Source: Cupriavidus pauculus (lineage in GTDB: Bacteria > Pseudomonadota > Gammaproteobacteria > Burkholderiales > Burkholderiaceae). Taken from it: a DNA stretch of 64,000 bases. Below the pieces are notes generated by a model that worked only from the letters and a program-made list of their open reading frames with translations, did no database searches and was not told where the DNA came from. Location of the stretch: assembly GCF_022179805.1 (NCBI RefSeq), contig NZ_BPUO01000003.1, positions 62,001 to 126,000 of the forward strand, given 5' to 3'. The position numbers and the translations under genes are program-made. This document shows, piece after piece, positions 1 through 5,089 of the stretch (positions within the stretch are counted from its first letter, which is position 1; the number at the start of each line of letters is the position of its first letter).

Positions 1-1251
1 CTGCCCGCGCGGTTGCAAGCCGAGCCGCATCTGTCCGTACATGCTGGACACGGCGTGCCAGTTGACGCTGATGTGGTGGGCCACCGCGTTGATGTCGCGC
101 CATGCACGCTGCACGCCGTTGTCCAACTGGATGCCGGTGCCGCCCACCACGTCATACAGTTCGTTGATGGCCTCCACGCAGAGCTGCACGGCATAGGCGT
201 GACCGCGCCGCAGCGTGATGCGCTGCGCGGCGCTCAGCTTGGTGCCGGCGGCCACCAGGTCCGTGGCCAGTTGCAGGTCACGCTGCAGGATCAGTTGGGC
301 GGCGTCCACGGCGGCTTCTCCGCGCGCCACCGCCGACTGCACGTGGCCAAACTGCGCGATCGATTGCCCGCCGCCCGCGAACGCGCCGCGTGTGGCACGC
401 GCCGCCACACCGTCGACAAATTCGTCCAGCGCGCCGCGCAATGCGGACACAGCGGGGTTGGCCAGCAGCGGCGGGAATCCGCTCAGGAACGGCAGCCGGT
501 AGATCAGCGACGCATGCAGTTCGGCACCGGGCCCGGCCTGCTCCAGCACATCAGCGAAAGCCACCGTGCGATGCTCCGGCACGAAAACCGGCTCGGTGAT
601 GGCGATGTCCTTGCTGCCGGTACCTGCCAGGCCAACCGTGTGCCAGGTATCGACGATCTCGTACTCGCCCTTGGGCACCAGCAGGAACACCGGACGCGGA
701 GGCTGGCCCTCTTCCTGCTGGACCATCGCGCCAAGCGACATCCATTGGGCGTTGTCGCAGTTGCTGCCGAAGCTCCAGCGGCCTTGCAGGCGGAAACCGC
801 CGGCCACCGGCTCGGCCTTGCCGGTCGGGGCGATGCACGAGGCGATCAGCGCGTCGGGCGATGCACCCCACACATCCTGCTGGGCCTCGCCCGGGAACAT
901 GCCCAGCACCCATGACGCCGCCGCGCTCAGGCCATAGCACCAGCCGGTGGAAGTGCATCCGCGCCCGAGTTCGAACGCCAGGCGGCGCAGCACTTCGAGC
1001 CCGAGTTCGTGTCCGCCGAAGCGCTTGGGCTGGACCACGCGGTACAGGCCGGCGGCGGTCAGCTGTTCCGTGATGTCCGTCGAGACGCGGCGGTCCAGCT
1101 CCGTCTGGCGGGCGCGTTGCGCAATGATCGGGCGAAGCCGCGCGGCGGCCTCCATCAGCTTGGTCTGCACGGCGGTGTCGGCAATCGTTGCCGGCGCCGA
1201 TGCCGGGTTCAGTGCAGTGGGGCGATCCAGTACAGCTTGGGTTGTGGACAT
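1..1251 (-). CDS. Flavin-dependent monooxygenase, acyl-CoA dehydrogenase fold (partial, 3' end off the window)
   Basis: The minus-strand frame is open from an ATG at 1251 to the left edge (417 codons), so only the last few residues are missing if the length is typical of the family (about 390-420). The protein has the acyl-CoA dehydrogenase fold used by two-component aromatic hydroxylases of the HsaA/HpaH type: a GCTSTGWCYGL segment near residue 100 and AGTGSKDIAITE in the middle domain. Such enzymes use reduced flavin from a separate reductase, which is not in view. An AGGAG Shine-Dalgarno precedes the ATG. The gene is divergent from the amidohydrolase at 1365 and shares its control element. 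Exact substrate unknown; a phenolic ring is a guess from the family. Confidence 0.75.
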   Translation of the reverse strand, partial: MSTTQAVLDRPTALNPASAPATIADTAVQTKLMEAAARLRPIIAQRARQTELDRRVSTDITEQLTAAGLYRVVQPKRFGGHELGLEVLRRLAFELGRGCTSTGWCYGLSAAASWVLGMFPGEAQQDVWGASPDALIASCIAPTGKAEPVAGGFRLQGRWSFGSNCDNAQWMSLGAMVQQEEGQPPRPVFLLVPKGEYEIVDTWHTVGLAGTGSKDIAITEPVFVPEHRTVAFADVLEQAGPGAELHASLIYRLPFLSGFPPLLANPAVSALRGALDEFVDGVAARATRGAFAGGGQSIAQFGHVQSAVARGEAAVDAAQLILQRDLQLATDLVAAGTKLSAAQRITLRRGHAYAVQLCVEAINELYDVVGGTGIQLDNGVQRAWRDINAVAHHISVNWHAVSSMYGQMRLGLQPRGQ

Positions 1252-1270: not shown

Positions 1271-1328
1271 GTTGCAAAAGCAACCTATCCGTGCTCGAAT
1301 TAAAGCGCATGACAGTTGCTTTTGCAAC
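1271..1328. promoter_or_regulatory. Double-palindrome operator A between divergent genes
   Basis: Two 14-bp palindromes, GTTGCAAAAGCAAC (1271-1284) and GTTGCTTTTGCAAC (1315-1328), lie 44 bp centre to centre, with GAATTAAAG between them. The same arrangement recurs at 3988-4046. The pair sits in the divergent promoter of the monooxygenase and amidohydrolase genes. I infer a dimeric regulator that binds cooperatively; which one is not known. Confidence 0.7.
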
Positions 1329-1364
1329 CGTTTAGCGCGCACTTCCCTATCAGGAGATACCCGA

Positions 1365-2387
1365 ATGAACGCCCCCACCCTACCCGCCCGTTGCGGCTGC
1401 ATCGACGTCCACACCCATGTGATACCGGCCGAATTTCCCCGGTATCTCGGCAATCGGGCCAACGTGCCGTGGCCGTCGATGCGCGACGCGCAGCCCTGCC
1501 ATCGGCACGTTGTCATTTCGGGGCAGGTCTACCGCACGGTGCCGCACCACGCATGGGACACCGACGCCCGGCTAGCCGACATGGACGCTACCAACGTGAG
1601 CCACCAGGTGCTCTCGCCGATGCCGGAGCTGCTGTCGTACTGGATGGATGCGGAAGATGCCGGCGTGCTGTCGCGCTACCTGAACGAAACGCTCGCCGGC
1701 ATGGTGGCGCGCGCACCGGCCCGCTTCAGCGCACTGGGCGCGGCACCGCTACAGGATGTGGACCGTGCCATCGCCGAACTCGACCATGCGGTGCACACGC
1801 TGGGGCTGGCAGGGATTGAAGTGGGCAGCAATGTGATGGGCGTGCCGATTGGCGACCCGCGCTTCTGGCCGTTCTTCGAGGCGGCGCAAGCGTGCAATGC
1901 GGCGATCTTCGTGCATCCGCTGCGCCCGGCCGGCATGGAGCGGCTGGTCGGTCCAGCGGCACTGGAGCAGATCGTCGCCTTCCCGGGCGAGATTGGCCTG
2001 GCGGCGGCATCGCTGATCACGGGCGGTCTGCTCGCGCGTTTTCCGAAGCTGCGGATCGCCCTGAGCCACGGGGGCGGATCGATCCAGGCACTGGTGCCTC
2101 GCATGCAGTTCGCCTGGGAAAAACAGAGCGCATTGCGTGACGCCATCGAACAGGCACCCGCCGAGGCAGCGCGCGCGCTGTACTACGACGATCTGCTCTA
2201 CAGCCCCGAGGCCATTCGCGCGCTGGTGGATCTGGTCGGCGACCATCGCGTCATGATTGGCACCGACTATCCCTTCGCGATCATGGACCCGGACCCCGCC
2301 GCACGCGTTGCGTCGCTTGGCCTGTCGAACGATGTGATGGACCGGCTGCGGTGGAGGAATGCCGCCGCGTGGCTGGGCCGGATCTGA
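1365..2387 (+). CDS. Amidohydrolase-2 family (ACMSD-like decarboxylase/hydrolase)
   Basis: 340 residues from the ATG at 1365, chosen because CAGGAG lies eight bases upstream and because the conserved N-terminus starts there. Metal-binding motifs of the amidohydrolase-2/ACMSD group are visible: DVHTHVIP near residue 15, FVHPLRP near 180, LSHGGG near 230 and GTDYPF near 300. Family members decarboxylate or hydrolyse aromatic-ring cleavage products or benzoates (aminocarboxymuconate semialdehyde, gamma-resorcylate) with a bound zinc. With the neighbouring flavin hydroxylase and aldehyde dehydrogenase it suggests a hydroxylation, cleavage and oxidation route for an aromatic compound, though no ring-cleavage dioxygenase is in view. 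Confidence 0.8.
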   Translation: MNAPTLPARCGCIDVHTHVIPAEFPRYLGNRANVPWPSMRDAQPCHRHVVISGQVYRTVPHHAWDTDARLADMDATNVSHQVLSPMPELLSYWMDAEDAGVLSRYLNETLAGMVARAPARFSALGAAPLQDVDRAIAELDHAVHTLGLAGIEVGSNVMGVPIGDPRFWPFFEAAQACNAAIFVHPLRPAGMERLVGPAALEQIVAFPGEIGLAAASLITGGLLARFPKLRIALSHGGGSIQALVPRMQFAWEKQSALRDAIEQAPAEAARALYYDDLLYSPEAIRALVDLVGDHRVMIGTDYPFAIMDPDPAARVASLGLSNDVMDRLRWRNAAAWLGRI

Positions 2388-2398
2388 CGCACCACGTT

Positions 2399-2431
2399 CA
2401 CCCCGCCCGCCGCAATCCGGGCGGCGGGGTG
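2399..2431. terminator. GC-rich hairpin between convergent genes
   Basis: CACCCCGCC (2399-2407) pairs perfectly with GGCGGGGTG (2423-2431). It lies between the stop codons of the amidohydrolase (plus) and aldehyde dehydrogenase (minus). No T-tract follows on either strand, so it is only a probable bidirectional terminator. Confidence 0.5.
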
Positions 2432-2448
2432 CGCGGGCTCAATGGAGC

Positions 2449-3909
2449 TCAATGGTGATGCGGAATGAAATCCTGGGTGATCTGCTTGTACTCCAGGAAG
2501 TCTTCCACCGAAGCCAGGCCACCAAGCCGTCCCAGCCCGCTTGACTTGAATCCGCCCTCTTCCATTTCCACGGCGAGGTTGGCCCAGCTATTGATCGAGA
2601 CAAGCCCTGCCTGCAGGCGCCGCGCCACGCGGATCGGGCGATCGGCATCGCGGCTCCACACGCAGGCACTCAACCCGTAGTCGCTGTCGTTGGCCAGGGC
2701 GATGGCCTCGGCCTCGGTGTCGAACAACTGCAGGGTCTGGACCGGGCCAAACGTTTCCTCGCGCGCGATCGGCAAACGCTGGTCGGCAATTTCCAGCAGC
2801 GTCGGCCGATAGAATGCGCCGCCCGCCAGCGCAGGGTCCTGCGCGGGTCCGCCTCGCACGATGGGCCTGGCGCCCGCCGCGATGGCTGCTTCCACCGCCG
2901 CATCCACACGCGTCACCGCTGCCTTGTCGATCAGCGGTCCCATCTGGCTCGATGACTCGCGGGCCGGGCCCACGCGTACTGCCTCCAAGCGCTGCGCCAG
3001 GCCGGCACGCACGGCATCGGCAATGCCACGCTGCACCAGGACGCGGCTGCCCGTCATGCAGAACTGCCCCGCGAACACCGTGCAGGACTTCTCCAGCACC
3101 GGCAACACGGCCGCCAGGTCGGCATCGTCGAACACGAGGTGCGGCGTCTTGCCACCGAGTTCGAGCCCGACGCGCTTGAGCCGGTCTGCCGCCGCGCGGG
3201 CAATGGCCCGTCCGGTCACCGTGCTCCCGGTAAAGCTGACCACTGGCACCAGCGGCGAATCCACCAGCAGACGTGCGCCTTCGGCGCCCGATTCGGTGAC
3301 GATATTGACCACGCCCTTTGGCAACTCCGGTACGCTTGCGATGATGCTGGCGAGCAGCGCGGCGGTCTGCGCGGCCTGATGCGGCATCTTGACCACCGCC
3401 GTGCAGCCTGCGGCCAGCGCCGGCGCGAGCGCCCGGATGCACAGGTAGGCCGGCGAGTTCCAGGGAATGATGAGACCGGCTACGCCGACTGGTTCGCGAA
3501 TGCTCATGGTTTGCTGGCCTGGCCGGCTTTCCACCACGCGGCCGAAGTTGTGCATCGCCAGCCCCGACACAAACCGCAGCGCGCGCGGAATCAGCGACGC
3601 CTCGAACGTCGCTTCCGGGCGGATCTTGCCGTTCTCGGCGCACAGGCTGTCCACCACCTCCTGCTGCCTGGCGGCAAACGCGTCGGCCAGATGGCCAAGC
3701 GCCGTGGCGCGCAGATAGGCATCGTCCCGCCAGTGGCTGCCTGCAAAAGCTTCGGCGGCAGCATCGATGGCCAACTGCATCGTGGCTACCGGTGCGTCGT
3801 GGAAATAGCCAATCACCTCACCCGTCGCCGGATCGATACTCTCCCTGCACTGCCCATCGGCGAGCCATTCGCCGCGGATCCAGTGCATGGCTTCAGCCTT
3901 TGCCGTCAT
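2449..3909 (-). CDS. NAD(P)-dependent aldehyde dehydrogenase
   Basis: 486 residues from the ATG at 3909; the open frame extends 17 codons further, but the family N-terminus (MHWIRGEW and onward) fits the shorter form. Visible landmarks are the IPWNSP strand near residue 150, the FTGSTVTGR cofactor loop near 230, the general-base glutamate in ELGGKTPH near 255, the nucleophile in GQFCMTGSR near 290, and EETFGPV near 390. This is a complete soluble aldehyde dehydrogenase of the betaine/hydroxymuconic-semialdehyde type. The natural aldehyde is probably a product of the monooxygenase/amidohydrolase route, because both transcription units share the same control element. Confidence 0.85.
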   Translation of the reverse strand: MTAKAEAMHWIRGEWLADGQCRESIDPATGEVIGYFHDAPVATMQLAIDAAAEAFAGSHWRDDAYLRATALGHLADAFAARQQEVVDSLCAENGKIRPEATFEASLIPRALRFVSGLAMHNFGRVVESRPGQQTMSIREPVGVAGLIIPWNSPAYLCIRALAPALAAGCTAVVKMPHQAAQTAALLASIIASVPELPKGVVNIVTESGAEGARLLVDSPLVPVVSFTGSTVTGRAIARAAADRLKRVGLELGGKTPHLVFDDADLAAVLPVLEKSCTVFAGQFCMTGSRVLVQRGIADAVRAGLAQRLEAVRVGPARESSSQMGPLIDKAAVTRVDAAVEAAIAAGARPIVRGGPAQDPALAGGAFYRPTLLEIADQRLPIAREETFGPVQTLQLFDTEAEAIALANDSDYGLSACVWSRDADRPIRVARRLQAGLVSINSWANLAVEMEEGGFKSSGLGRLGGLASVEDFLEYKQITQDFIPHHH

Positions 3910-3987
3910 GGAATGTCGCCTTGTCTGTAGTTGGTGCAAGCCGGTGGTTGGGCCGGTCATGCCTGTGCGTCGCCAGATCGCTTTTAT

Positions 3988-4046
3988 GGTTGCTAAAACA
4001 ACCTATGCGCGGGGAATTAAAGCATAGACAGGTTGCTTTTACAACC
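3988..4046. promoter_or_regulatory. Double-palindrome operator B upstream of the aldehyde dehydrogenase
   Basis: Two 16-bp palindromes of form GGTTG-N6-CAACC (3988-4003 and 4031-4046), 43 bp centre to centre, with GAATTAAAGC between. It matches the element at 1271-1328 in half-sites, spacing and central sequence, in the same orientation. It lies between the LysR stop (4084) and the aldehyde dehydrogenase start (3909). Confidence 0.7.
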
Positions 4047-4083: not shown

Positions 4084-4998
4084 CTAGCCAAGCATGGATA
4101 TGACAGCCTCGCGCATCCACCGGTGTGACAGTGACTGGTCCCAGCGTGAATGCCAGGCCATCGAGTAAATGCGATTCGGCAACTCTGCCGGCAGTTCCAG
4201 CATGCTCAGGTCGAACTGGCTTGCAAGAATCCTCGCCACACGCACTGGCAGCGTAATTGCCGCGTTGCTCTCGCGCATGGCGAACGGCGCCAGGGACAGC
4301 GTCGACACGTACATCGGGAACTTGCGCTTCGGCAATCCATGCTCCTTGAGCAGGTTGTCGACGTCGTTGTCTCGCCCGAGCATGTTGATCGTGCTGATGA
4401 AACGCATGTCGGCGAGATCGGCCAAGTCCAGCCGCTTTTCGGCAAGCGGATGGTCGCGCCGCACCAGGCATACGCGCCGCTCTTCGAACAGCGGAAAGAA
4501 CGTCACGTTGCGCGCCTGGCGGTCGAAGCGGCCGATTGCGATGTCGATGGCGCCAGTTTCGAGATCCTCGACAGGCGTGACATCGCCATAGGCCGGGAAG
4601 AAATACGCGCCGGCATTGGGCGCGGCGGTTTCCAGGAATTTATGCAGCAATGGGGCCAGCAGCAGTTCGACGGCACTCGTCGTCCCGATCTTGAACACCT
4701 GCGTCGACTCCGACGGCCGGAAGCCCCCTCCCTCCTCCAGCGCGTGGTCAACGGCTTCGAGCGCTCGCCTGACCGATTCACGGAGATGGCGAGCCAGTTC
4801 GGTGGGCTCCAGTTTTCCCCGGACCCGGACAAACAACGGGTCGGACAACTCTTCCCGTAGCCGGGCGAGATCGCGACTCACGCCCGGCTGCGTACGCGCA
4901 AGCCGTTCAGCGGTCTTGGTAACGCTGCCCGTGTCCATCAGGGATTCGAAGACCACCAGCAGATTCAGGTCGAAGCGTCGGAGCGACAGGAGATTCAT
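4084..4998 (-). CDS. LysR-family transcriptional regulator
   Basis: 304 residues, the usual LTTR length. The N-terminal winged helix-turn-helix is clear (LNLLVVFESLMDTGSVTKTA, then QPGVSRDLARLREEL), followed by a periplasmic-binding-like effector domain (residues about 90-300). N-terminal style (FDLNLLVVFE) resembles the NodD/LinR/aromatic-sensing LTTR branch. It is divergent from the Bug receptor at 5192, with a perfect dyad at 5070-5089 in the shared intergenic region, so the Bug/C45/serine-dehydratase operon is its likely target. Effector unknown. Confidence 0.88.
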   Translation of the reverse strand: MNLLSLRRFDLNLLVVFESLMDTGSVTKTAERLARTQPGVSRDLARLREELSDPLFVRVRGKLEPTELARHLRESVRRALEAVDHALEEGGGFRPSESTQVFKIGTTSAVELLLAPLLHKFLETAAPNAGAYFFPAYGDVTPVEDLETGAIDIAIGRFDRQARNVTFFPLFEERRVCLVRRDHPLAEKRLDLADLADMRFISTINMLGRDNDVDNLLKEHGLPKRKFPMYVSTLSLAPFAMRESNAAITLPVRVARILASQFDLSMLELPAELPNRIYSMAWHSRWDQSLSHRWMREAVISMLG

Positions 4999-5010: not shown

Positions 5011-5089
5011 GAATATGGTCGGCCGCTAGCCCCTGCACTCATCAGGCGGTGCGACCACGGGCGCGACAAACATACCGAATATGGTATGT
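5011..5089. promoter_or_regulatory. LysR-type operator region with a dyad and a repeated half-site
   Basis: ACATACC-GAATAT-GGTATGT at 5070-5089 is a perfect 7-bp-arm dyad. The 9-mer GAATATGGT within it (5077-5085) occurs again at 5011-5019, close to the LysR start. A recognition site plus a weaker activation site between divergent genes is the usual LysR arrangement; that this LysR protein binds here is inferred. Confidence 0.55.

Follow-up and report, generated by a model that had tools for sequence, protein, structure and literature searches.

We analysed a 64,000-nucleotide stretch of Cupriavidus pauculus DNA (the window, which starts at base 62001 of contig 3 of the genome handled here as G000) in which two short elements, each made up of two GTTGY-N4-RCAAC palindromes around GAATTAAAG, lie beside catabolic genes. 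Based on their layout, their co-occurrence with MarR-family genes and their conservation in relatives, all of which can be read directly from the DNA, we propose that these elements are probably promoters with an operator of a MarR-family repressor on either side, and that together they serve as the switch of an aromatic-degradation cluster. The regulator is most likely the product of a MarR-family gene at G000:C3:55230-55862, 7.4 kb to the left of element 1 and outside the window, as judged from the comparisons below. An initial annotation of the window had suspected a regulator encoded to its left, for which this gene is now a named candidate; its wider picture, in which a single dimer-type regulator with two such sites in each element would jointly control one catabolic module, is likewise supported at the level of sequence.

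Architecture and probable promoter layout of the two elements

Element 1 (1271-1328) spans 58 bp in total, its palindromes being 44 bp apart from start to start, and comprises GTTGCAAAAGCAAC on the left (1271-1284), the predicted downstream operator of a leftward transcript, and GTTGCTTTTGCAAC on the right (1315-1328), the predicted upstream operator, which contains a leftward -35-like hexamer. Element 2 (3989-4045) spans 57 bp with a start-to-start distance of 43 bp, and comprises GTTGCTAAAACAAC (3989-4002), the predicted downstream operator of an aldehyde-dehydrogenase promoter, and GTTGCTTTTACAAC (4032-4045), a predicted operator with -35-like TTGTAA. The initial annotation had described both double palindromes with these spacings, and GAATTAAAG in the same orientation between each pair, and we observed all of this in the window; its coordinates were right for element 1, but for element 2 (3988-4046) they were one base too wide on each side.

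The strict pair pattern (gap 24-36) occurs at only two places in the entire 6.80-Mb genome, elements 1 and 2, and at none with the reversed-pattern control; the genome-wide pair search that had been suggested earlier thus returned no pair besides these. A fixed-gap search of the genome (N30 only, up to three mismatches) recovered element 1 and no additional pair, and about 0.0008 pairs would be expected from 21 randomly placed sites. Single palindromes are enriched neither in the window (15 matches with at most one mismatch against 10.5 expected, a count reached by 17 of 100 shuffles) nor in the genome (21 places for GTTGYN4RCAAC against 30 for the control), and the signal is therefore carried by the pairing and by the A/T-only centres. 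Exact palindromes with A/T-only centres occur at four places in the genome, all of them the four sites of the elements; with up to one mismatch there are 13 such places against 19 for the control. The arms of the two elements agree at 22/30 and 13/15 compared positions. Their flanks are alike at 14/60 and 16/60 positions, no better than random, and recent duplication of a segment was therefore rejected as their origin.

On the minus strand element 1 reads TTGCAA-N17-TTTAAT and element 2 TTGTAA-N17-TTTAAT, the first hexamer in each case lying inside a palindrome: the -35-like TTGCAA of element 1 (1327-1322) falls within GTTGCTTTTGCAAC and the -35-like TTGTAA of element 2 (4044-4039) within GTTGCTTTTACAAC, with the -10-like TTTAAT 17 bp on at 1299..1304 and 4016..4021, respectively. 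The former TTTAAT is the conserved part of GAATTAAAG, its letters being identical in G000, in the Cupriavidus genomes G178 and G089 (C. agavae) and in Pusillimonas noertemannii; the latter is TTCAAT in C. agavae. The 17-bp distance and T(T/C)(T/C)AAT are kept in G178, G089 (both elements) and P. noertemannii, and likewise, with TCCAAT, in G975, G977, G980 and G981 (counted by eye). In light of this layout a minus-strand promoter at each element is probable, and GAATTAAAG makes better sense as a -10-like hexamer read in reverse complement, 17 bp away from the -35-like hexamer in the palindrome; promoter geometry may account for much of the element layout. The second palindrome would then begin some 8 bases past the start, GTTGCAAAAGCAAC of element 1 occupying roughly +9 to +22 of the transcript that runs left. 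In the other direction, TTGCAA inside GTTGCAAAAGCAAC (1272-1277, plus strand) is a possible rightward -35, followed after 17 bp by a weak -10-like TCGAAT (1295..1300, plus strand) with the same letters in three Cupriavidus loci, and TTGCAA-N17-TCGAAT could be a weak rightward promoter for a divergent amidohydrolase gene.

The MarR-family gene, its relatives and their palindromes

The candidate regulator has a MarR winged-helix domain scoring over the curated cut-offs (PF12802, 47.8 against 27; PF01047, 44.5 against 24.6), and its best NCBIfam match is HpaR (TIGR02337, E 1.5e-13). Its identification as HpaR itself was rejected, the 50.7 bits falling under the TIGR02337 cut-off of 121.2. HpaR is a regulator in the homoprotocatechuate pathway, and the likeness to that system extends to a flavin monooxygenase and an extradiol dioxygenase, which also occur in the present cluster. 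A variant site, GTTGCTTAAGCTAT, stands 37 bp ahead of the MarR ATG, and is among the five sites in this locus out of 22 places in the genome that match the widened motif with at most one mismatch (reversed control 143). The block around GTTGCTTAAGCTAT is conserved in three genomes, among which the DNA further upstream looks unrelated. This single degenerate site suggests that the MarR gene may be autoregulated. Directly upstream of the MarR gene in this genome are a type II 3-dehydroquinate dehydratase-like gene (L003:10705-11160, that is G000:C3:54705-55160) and, ahead of that gene, an MHS-type (shikimate-transporter-like) gene; tblastn against the stretches fetched from G002, G178, G089 and P. 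noertemannii gave no relative of either gene.

MarR proteins of at least 83% identity occur in four of 60 genomes of the genus (G000; G178, 92%; G089, 89%; G002, 83% over residues 63-210), the next best in the genus, among the matches listed, being at 38%. The exact-pattern element is present in three of these four (G000, G178 and G089) and the search, which covered 59 of the 60, did not find it in any of the other 56 genus genomes that it took in. Across 398 genomes of the family, 59 of them from the genus, the exact-pair search matched seven, and the reversed control one (G020). The pair matches in G250, G342, G386 and G320 belong to other genera and have other cores; in three of these four a MarR-like open reading frame lies 107-127 bp from the pair, and none was found in the 3-kb G320 pair locus. 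An order-level MarR search over 399 genomes returned, at E 1e-25 or better, G000, G002 and G597 (37%).

Conservation among the three Cupriavidus loci is by itself uninformative, because the entire intergenic region is conserved. Pusillimonas noertemannii has an element before its monooxygenase genes and a MarR gene (50%) at the end, the monooxygenase being 70%, the dioxygenase 71%, the reductase 61% and the MFS transporter 65% identical; its element keeps op1 (the operator with the -35-like hexamer), the 17-bp distance and GCTTTAAT, and its upstream region has largely diverged except for the operators and GCTTTAAT. A counterpart of the 1271-1284 palindrome is present in G178, G089 and P. noertemannii. 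C. agavae retains the aldehyde dehydrogenase and an altered element 2 with a spacing of 46 bp, in which GTTGCTTTTACAAC is intact and identical and the counterpart of GTTGCTAAAACAAC is the degenerate GTTGGTTTAACAAC. Element 2 was not found in G178, where a piece of about 34 residues from the end of the aldehyde dehydrogenase is left (L117:15945-16200). Also in G178, GTTGTCCGGGCAAC before the second amidohydrolase was tried as a site of the same family and rejected, its counterparts in G000 and G089 being broken and its centre GC-rich. G002 (L116, G002:C131:29001-43767) holds a remnant of the cluster, consisting of a porin and a MarR without about its first 65 residues, which comes after a stop codon and behind a RidA-like-looking frame (judged by eye); no element and no other cluster gene was found there up to the contig end.

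A search of 268 genomes from the P. noertemannii family gave MarR matches at E 1e-20 or better in 13, P. noertemannii included; stretches from seven of the other 12 were examined. Six of these seven MarRs (44-55% identical to the Pusillimonas MarR and 40-49% to that of Cupriavidus) adjoin a GGTTGTTTAAACTACC- or GGTAGTTTAAGCTACC-type palindrome, and the catabolic operon beside these six palindromes differs from the present one: it has an amidohydrolase and a TctC gene and, in four cases, also an FAA hydrolase. In G982 and G976 the MarR-linked palindrome was spotted by eye in the printed sequence; the site there is a long, near-perfect palindrome of TTTAAAAGGTAGTTTAAGCTACCTTTTAAA type (L141:10400-10450, and the intergenic stretch after MarR in L142). 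SYLSR, in the presumed recognition helix, is invariant in all ten aligned MarRs, as are a number of residues in a basic C-terminal tail (RK-x-x-VA-x-R, alignment A1, about columns 193-204), which is possibly an extra DNA contact.

A scan of species genomes for pairs whose centres were A/T-only and whose gap was 24-36 yielded 75 loci. With a MarR profile built from 22 of 30 matched stretches (the eight that had internal stops being left aside) and extended with the hits it gave, a MarR gene was detected within 300 bp of the pair in 56/75 loci and elsewhere in the locus in four; the pair lies at the MarR 5' end in 55 loci and at the 3' end in one. In a Pfam check, nine of the 56 and the P. noertemannii protein all passed (10/10). 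Exactly 17 bp after the TTGYWW of op1, a -10-like hexamer (score of at least 7/9) is present in 31/55 MarR-linked pairs, as compared with a mean of 3.7 and a maximum of 9 in a shuffled-spacer control (200 shuffles) and with 13/55 at the next best real offsets. These pairs from Bacillota, Bifidobacterium, Massilia and others share with the elements the GTTGY-W4-RCAAC palindrome and the pair layout, but they stand at the 5' end of the MarR gene itself, with spacings of 38-49 bp (the search window allowed 38-50 only), whereas those studied here are at catabolic promoters. In eight Bifidobacterium loci (L017, L022, L035, L036, L048, L063, L070 and L081) paired GTTGCATATGCAAC-type sites are exactly 44 bp apart before MarR genes, with a further TGTTGTA right behind the first site, and the 17-bp promoter rule fails.

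Repression weighed against other readings

Known MarR systems offer a ready parallel. According to an excerpt of PMC5487221, proteins of this family bind palindromic sites in promoters as homodimers and are frequently autoregulatory; the elements resemble the autoregulatory and catabolic operators described there in being palindromic promoter sites, but differ from the usual arrangement in that the strong pairs are at catabolic promoters and the MarR gene has one degenerate site. BhbR2 of Pigmentiphaga kullae, as portrayed in an excerpt of PMC12016517, is similarly the MarR protein of an aromatic catabolic operon, with a palindrome at -22 to -43, in the -35 region; it differs in having a single site, TTGATT-N5-AATCAA, and in acting as an activator. 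Searches of the open-licence PMC literature for the five literal palindromes together with the MarR family, and for the marO site, gave no match, and those on HpaR operators and on the pathway genes yielded nothing of use.

Several observations weigh against the proposed repression by MarR dimers. A strict sigma-70 scan gave no promoter at element 1 or 2, because TTTAAT has T rather than A at position 2; the rightward TCGAAT of element 1 was not called either. The 31/55 count above is dominated by one Bacillota group: when the MarRs are clustered at 50% identity, 5/12 clusters have a median score of at least 7, at 35% identity 3/7 do and the 17-bp offset ranks second, and Bifidobacterium and Robiginitomaculum do not fit the 17-bp rule. 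No MarR gene was detected in the stretch examined at 15/75 pair loci, two of which are Cupriavidus loci with the MarR beyond the stretch and six of which are repeat-like (L014, L015, L031, L044, L066 and L076). Furthermore, GTTGCTTAAGCTAT ahead of the MarR gene is degenerate, and in G908 (MarR at 38-40%, related monooxygenase) no site was found at the thresholds used. In P. noertemannii a GcvA-like LysR gene (L136:8599-9579) stands some 600 bp upstream of the element, and a role for a LysR protein there is possible. Finally, MarR proteins can activate as well, and the BhbR2 site at -22 to -43 is near the position of op1 (PMC12016517, in excerpt).

This last point leads to the alternative that the same MarR protein binds the same sites as an activator, aiding RNA polymerase at a poor -10. 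The weakness of the -10-like hexamer, on which the strict scans were negative, and the precedent of BhbR2, which activates in a related catabolic setting, speak for it, but the second operator at about +8 to +22 occupies a road-block position, and we consider activation unlikely. Control of both elements by the LysR gene beside element 2 (4084-4998) is far less probable still. It is the nearest regulator gene within the window, and the LysR-type gene upstream of the P. noertemannii element lends the idea some colour; yet no relative of the window's LysR stands beside the element in G178, G089 or P. noertemannii, the best match (24% over 112 residues, E 3e-5) being about 11 kb from the G178 element. 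The P. noertemannii protein, for its part, is of another subfamily, GcvA-like and 24% alike to the window's LysR (E 0.009), and has no match in the G000 and G089 stretches and a 25% match in G178 that is far from the element. Moreover, the palindrome at 5071-5088, CATACCGAATATGGTATG, is of a different type and is likely the LysR protein's own site. The view of the initial annotation that the neighbouring LysR is not the regulator thus stands, given the three other loci examined. At the bottom of the scale, we give almost no credence to the palindromes acting as RNA hairpins or a leader terminator: there is one terminator-like match at element 2 (4049-4028, minus strand; shuffle mean 0.3), but it precedes the predicted start, no such match occurs at element 1, and 55/75 pairs are at the 5' end of MarR genes.

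The initial annotation took the fixed spacing to suggest two dimers that contact each other. A further reading along this line is that 43-44 bp mainly serves to let two MarR dimers on one face of the DNA touch as a cooperative tetramer. A distance of 43-44 bp, about 4.1-4.2 turns, is indeed kept in 5/6 elements of this group, but C. agavae element 2 has 46 bp, other MarR-linked pairs range over 38-49 bp, and six relatives show just a single palindrome, as far as noticed. The promoter hexamers explain the layout from op1 to the core, though not the position of op2. MarR sites that overlap promoter boxes are given as the typical mode of repression in an excerpt of PMC12016517 (itself on an activating MarR). 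The fixed spacing is therefore no strong evidence for dimer contact, nor does it speak against it; such contact lost support in our comparisons, and we hold it to be doubtful as the main purpose of the spacing, though less so than activation.

A candidate switch for an aromatic-degradation cluster

Leftward of the window 38 kb was fetched and the nearer 18 kb (L003) analysed. From element 1 a leftward row of genes codes for a flavin monooxygenase, an extradiol dioxygenase, a flavin reductase, an MFS transporter, an FAA hydrolase, a second amidohydrolase and a porin; past the porin, in the opposite direction, the MarR-family gene marks the far end of the cluster. The first of the row (1..1251, minus strand, its end outside the window) is the oxygenase part of a two-component flavin monooxygenase (HsaA/HpaH-like, acyl-CoA-dehydrogenase fold). 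Divergent from element 1 is an amidohydrolase_2 gene (1365..2387, plus strand), an ACMSD-like decarboxylase candidate whose best PDB match is ACMSD (E 4e-53), and downstream of element 2 is the aldehyde dehydrogenase gene (2449..3909, minus strand). The LysR-type gene (4084..4998, minus strand) adjoins element 2, with CATACCGAATATGGTATG between it and a TctC gene. The elements had been said to bracket one catabolic module; they do flank the convergent amidohydrolase and aldehyde-dehydrogenase pair, but some 7 kb more of the cluster lies to the left, most of it beyond the window. Its genes look like a set for hydroxylation, meta-cleavage and decarboxylation of an aromatic acid.

Returning to MarR repression, we infer from this layout how binding, repression, ligand, transcript starts and operon structure might fit together. 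The upstream operator overlaps the -35-like TTGYAA, the -10-like TTTAAT follows 17 bp on, and the second operator would lie just past the predicted start. As long as substrate is absent, MarR dimers sitting on the two operators would keep RNA polymerase from binding and from elongating early on. Their release by an aromatic substrate or intermediate would then switch on, in concert, the leftward genes from monooxygenase to porin, the divergent amidohydrolase and the aldehyde dehydrogenase. More tentatively, and as a joint proposal that we think is rather less likely to hold than to fail, paired GTTGY-N4-RCAAC palindromes might be a widespread MarR promoter format across several phyla and element 1 a bidirectional switch, in which each operator would be the -35 one way and the road block the other way, with overlapping -10s in a 30-bp core, such that one repressor pair would shut both transcripts.

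The system would be an ordinary kind of bacterial control element, and its value lies in the concrete assignment of regulator to operators. An uncharacterised aromatic-degradation cluster thereby gains a named candidate regulator along with predicted operators and promoters, the elements are a possible biosensor part, and the pair pattern may predict MarR operators in many genomes without experiment.

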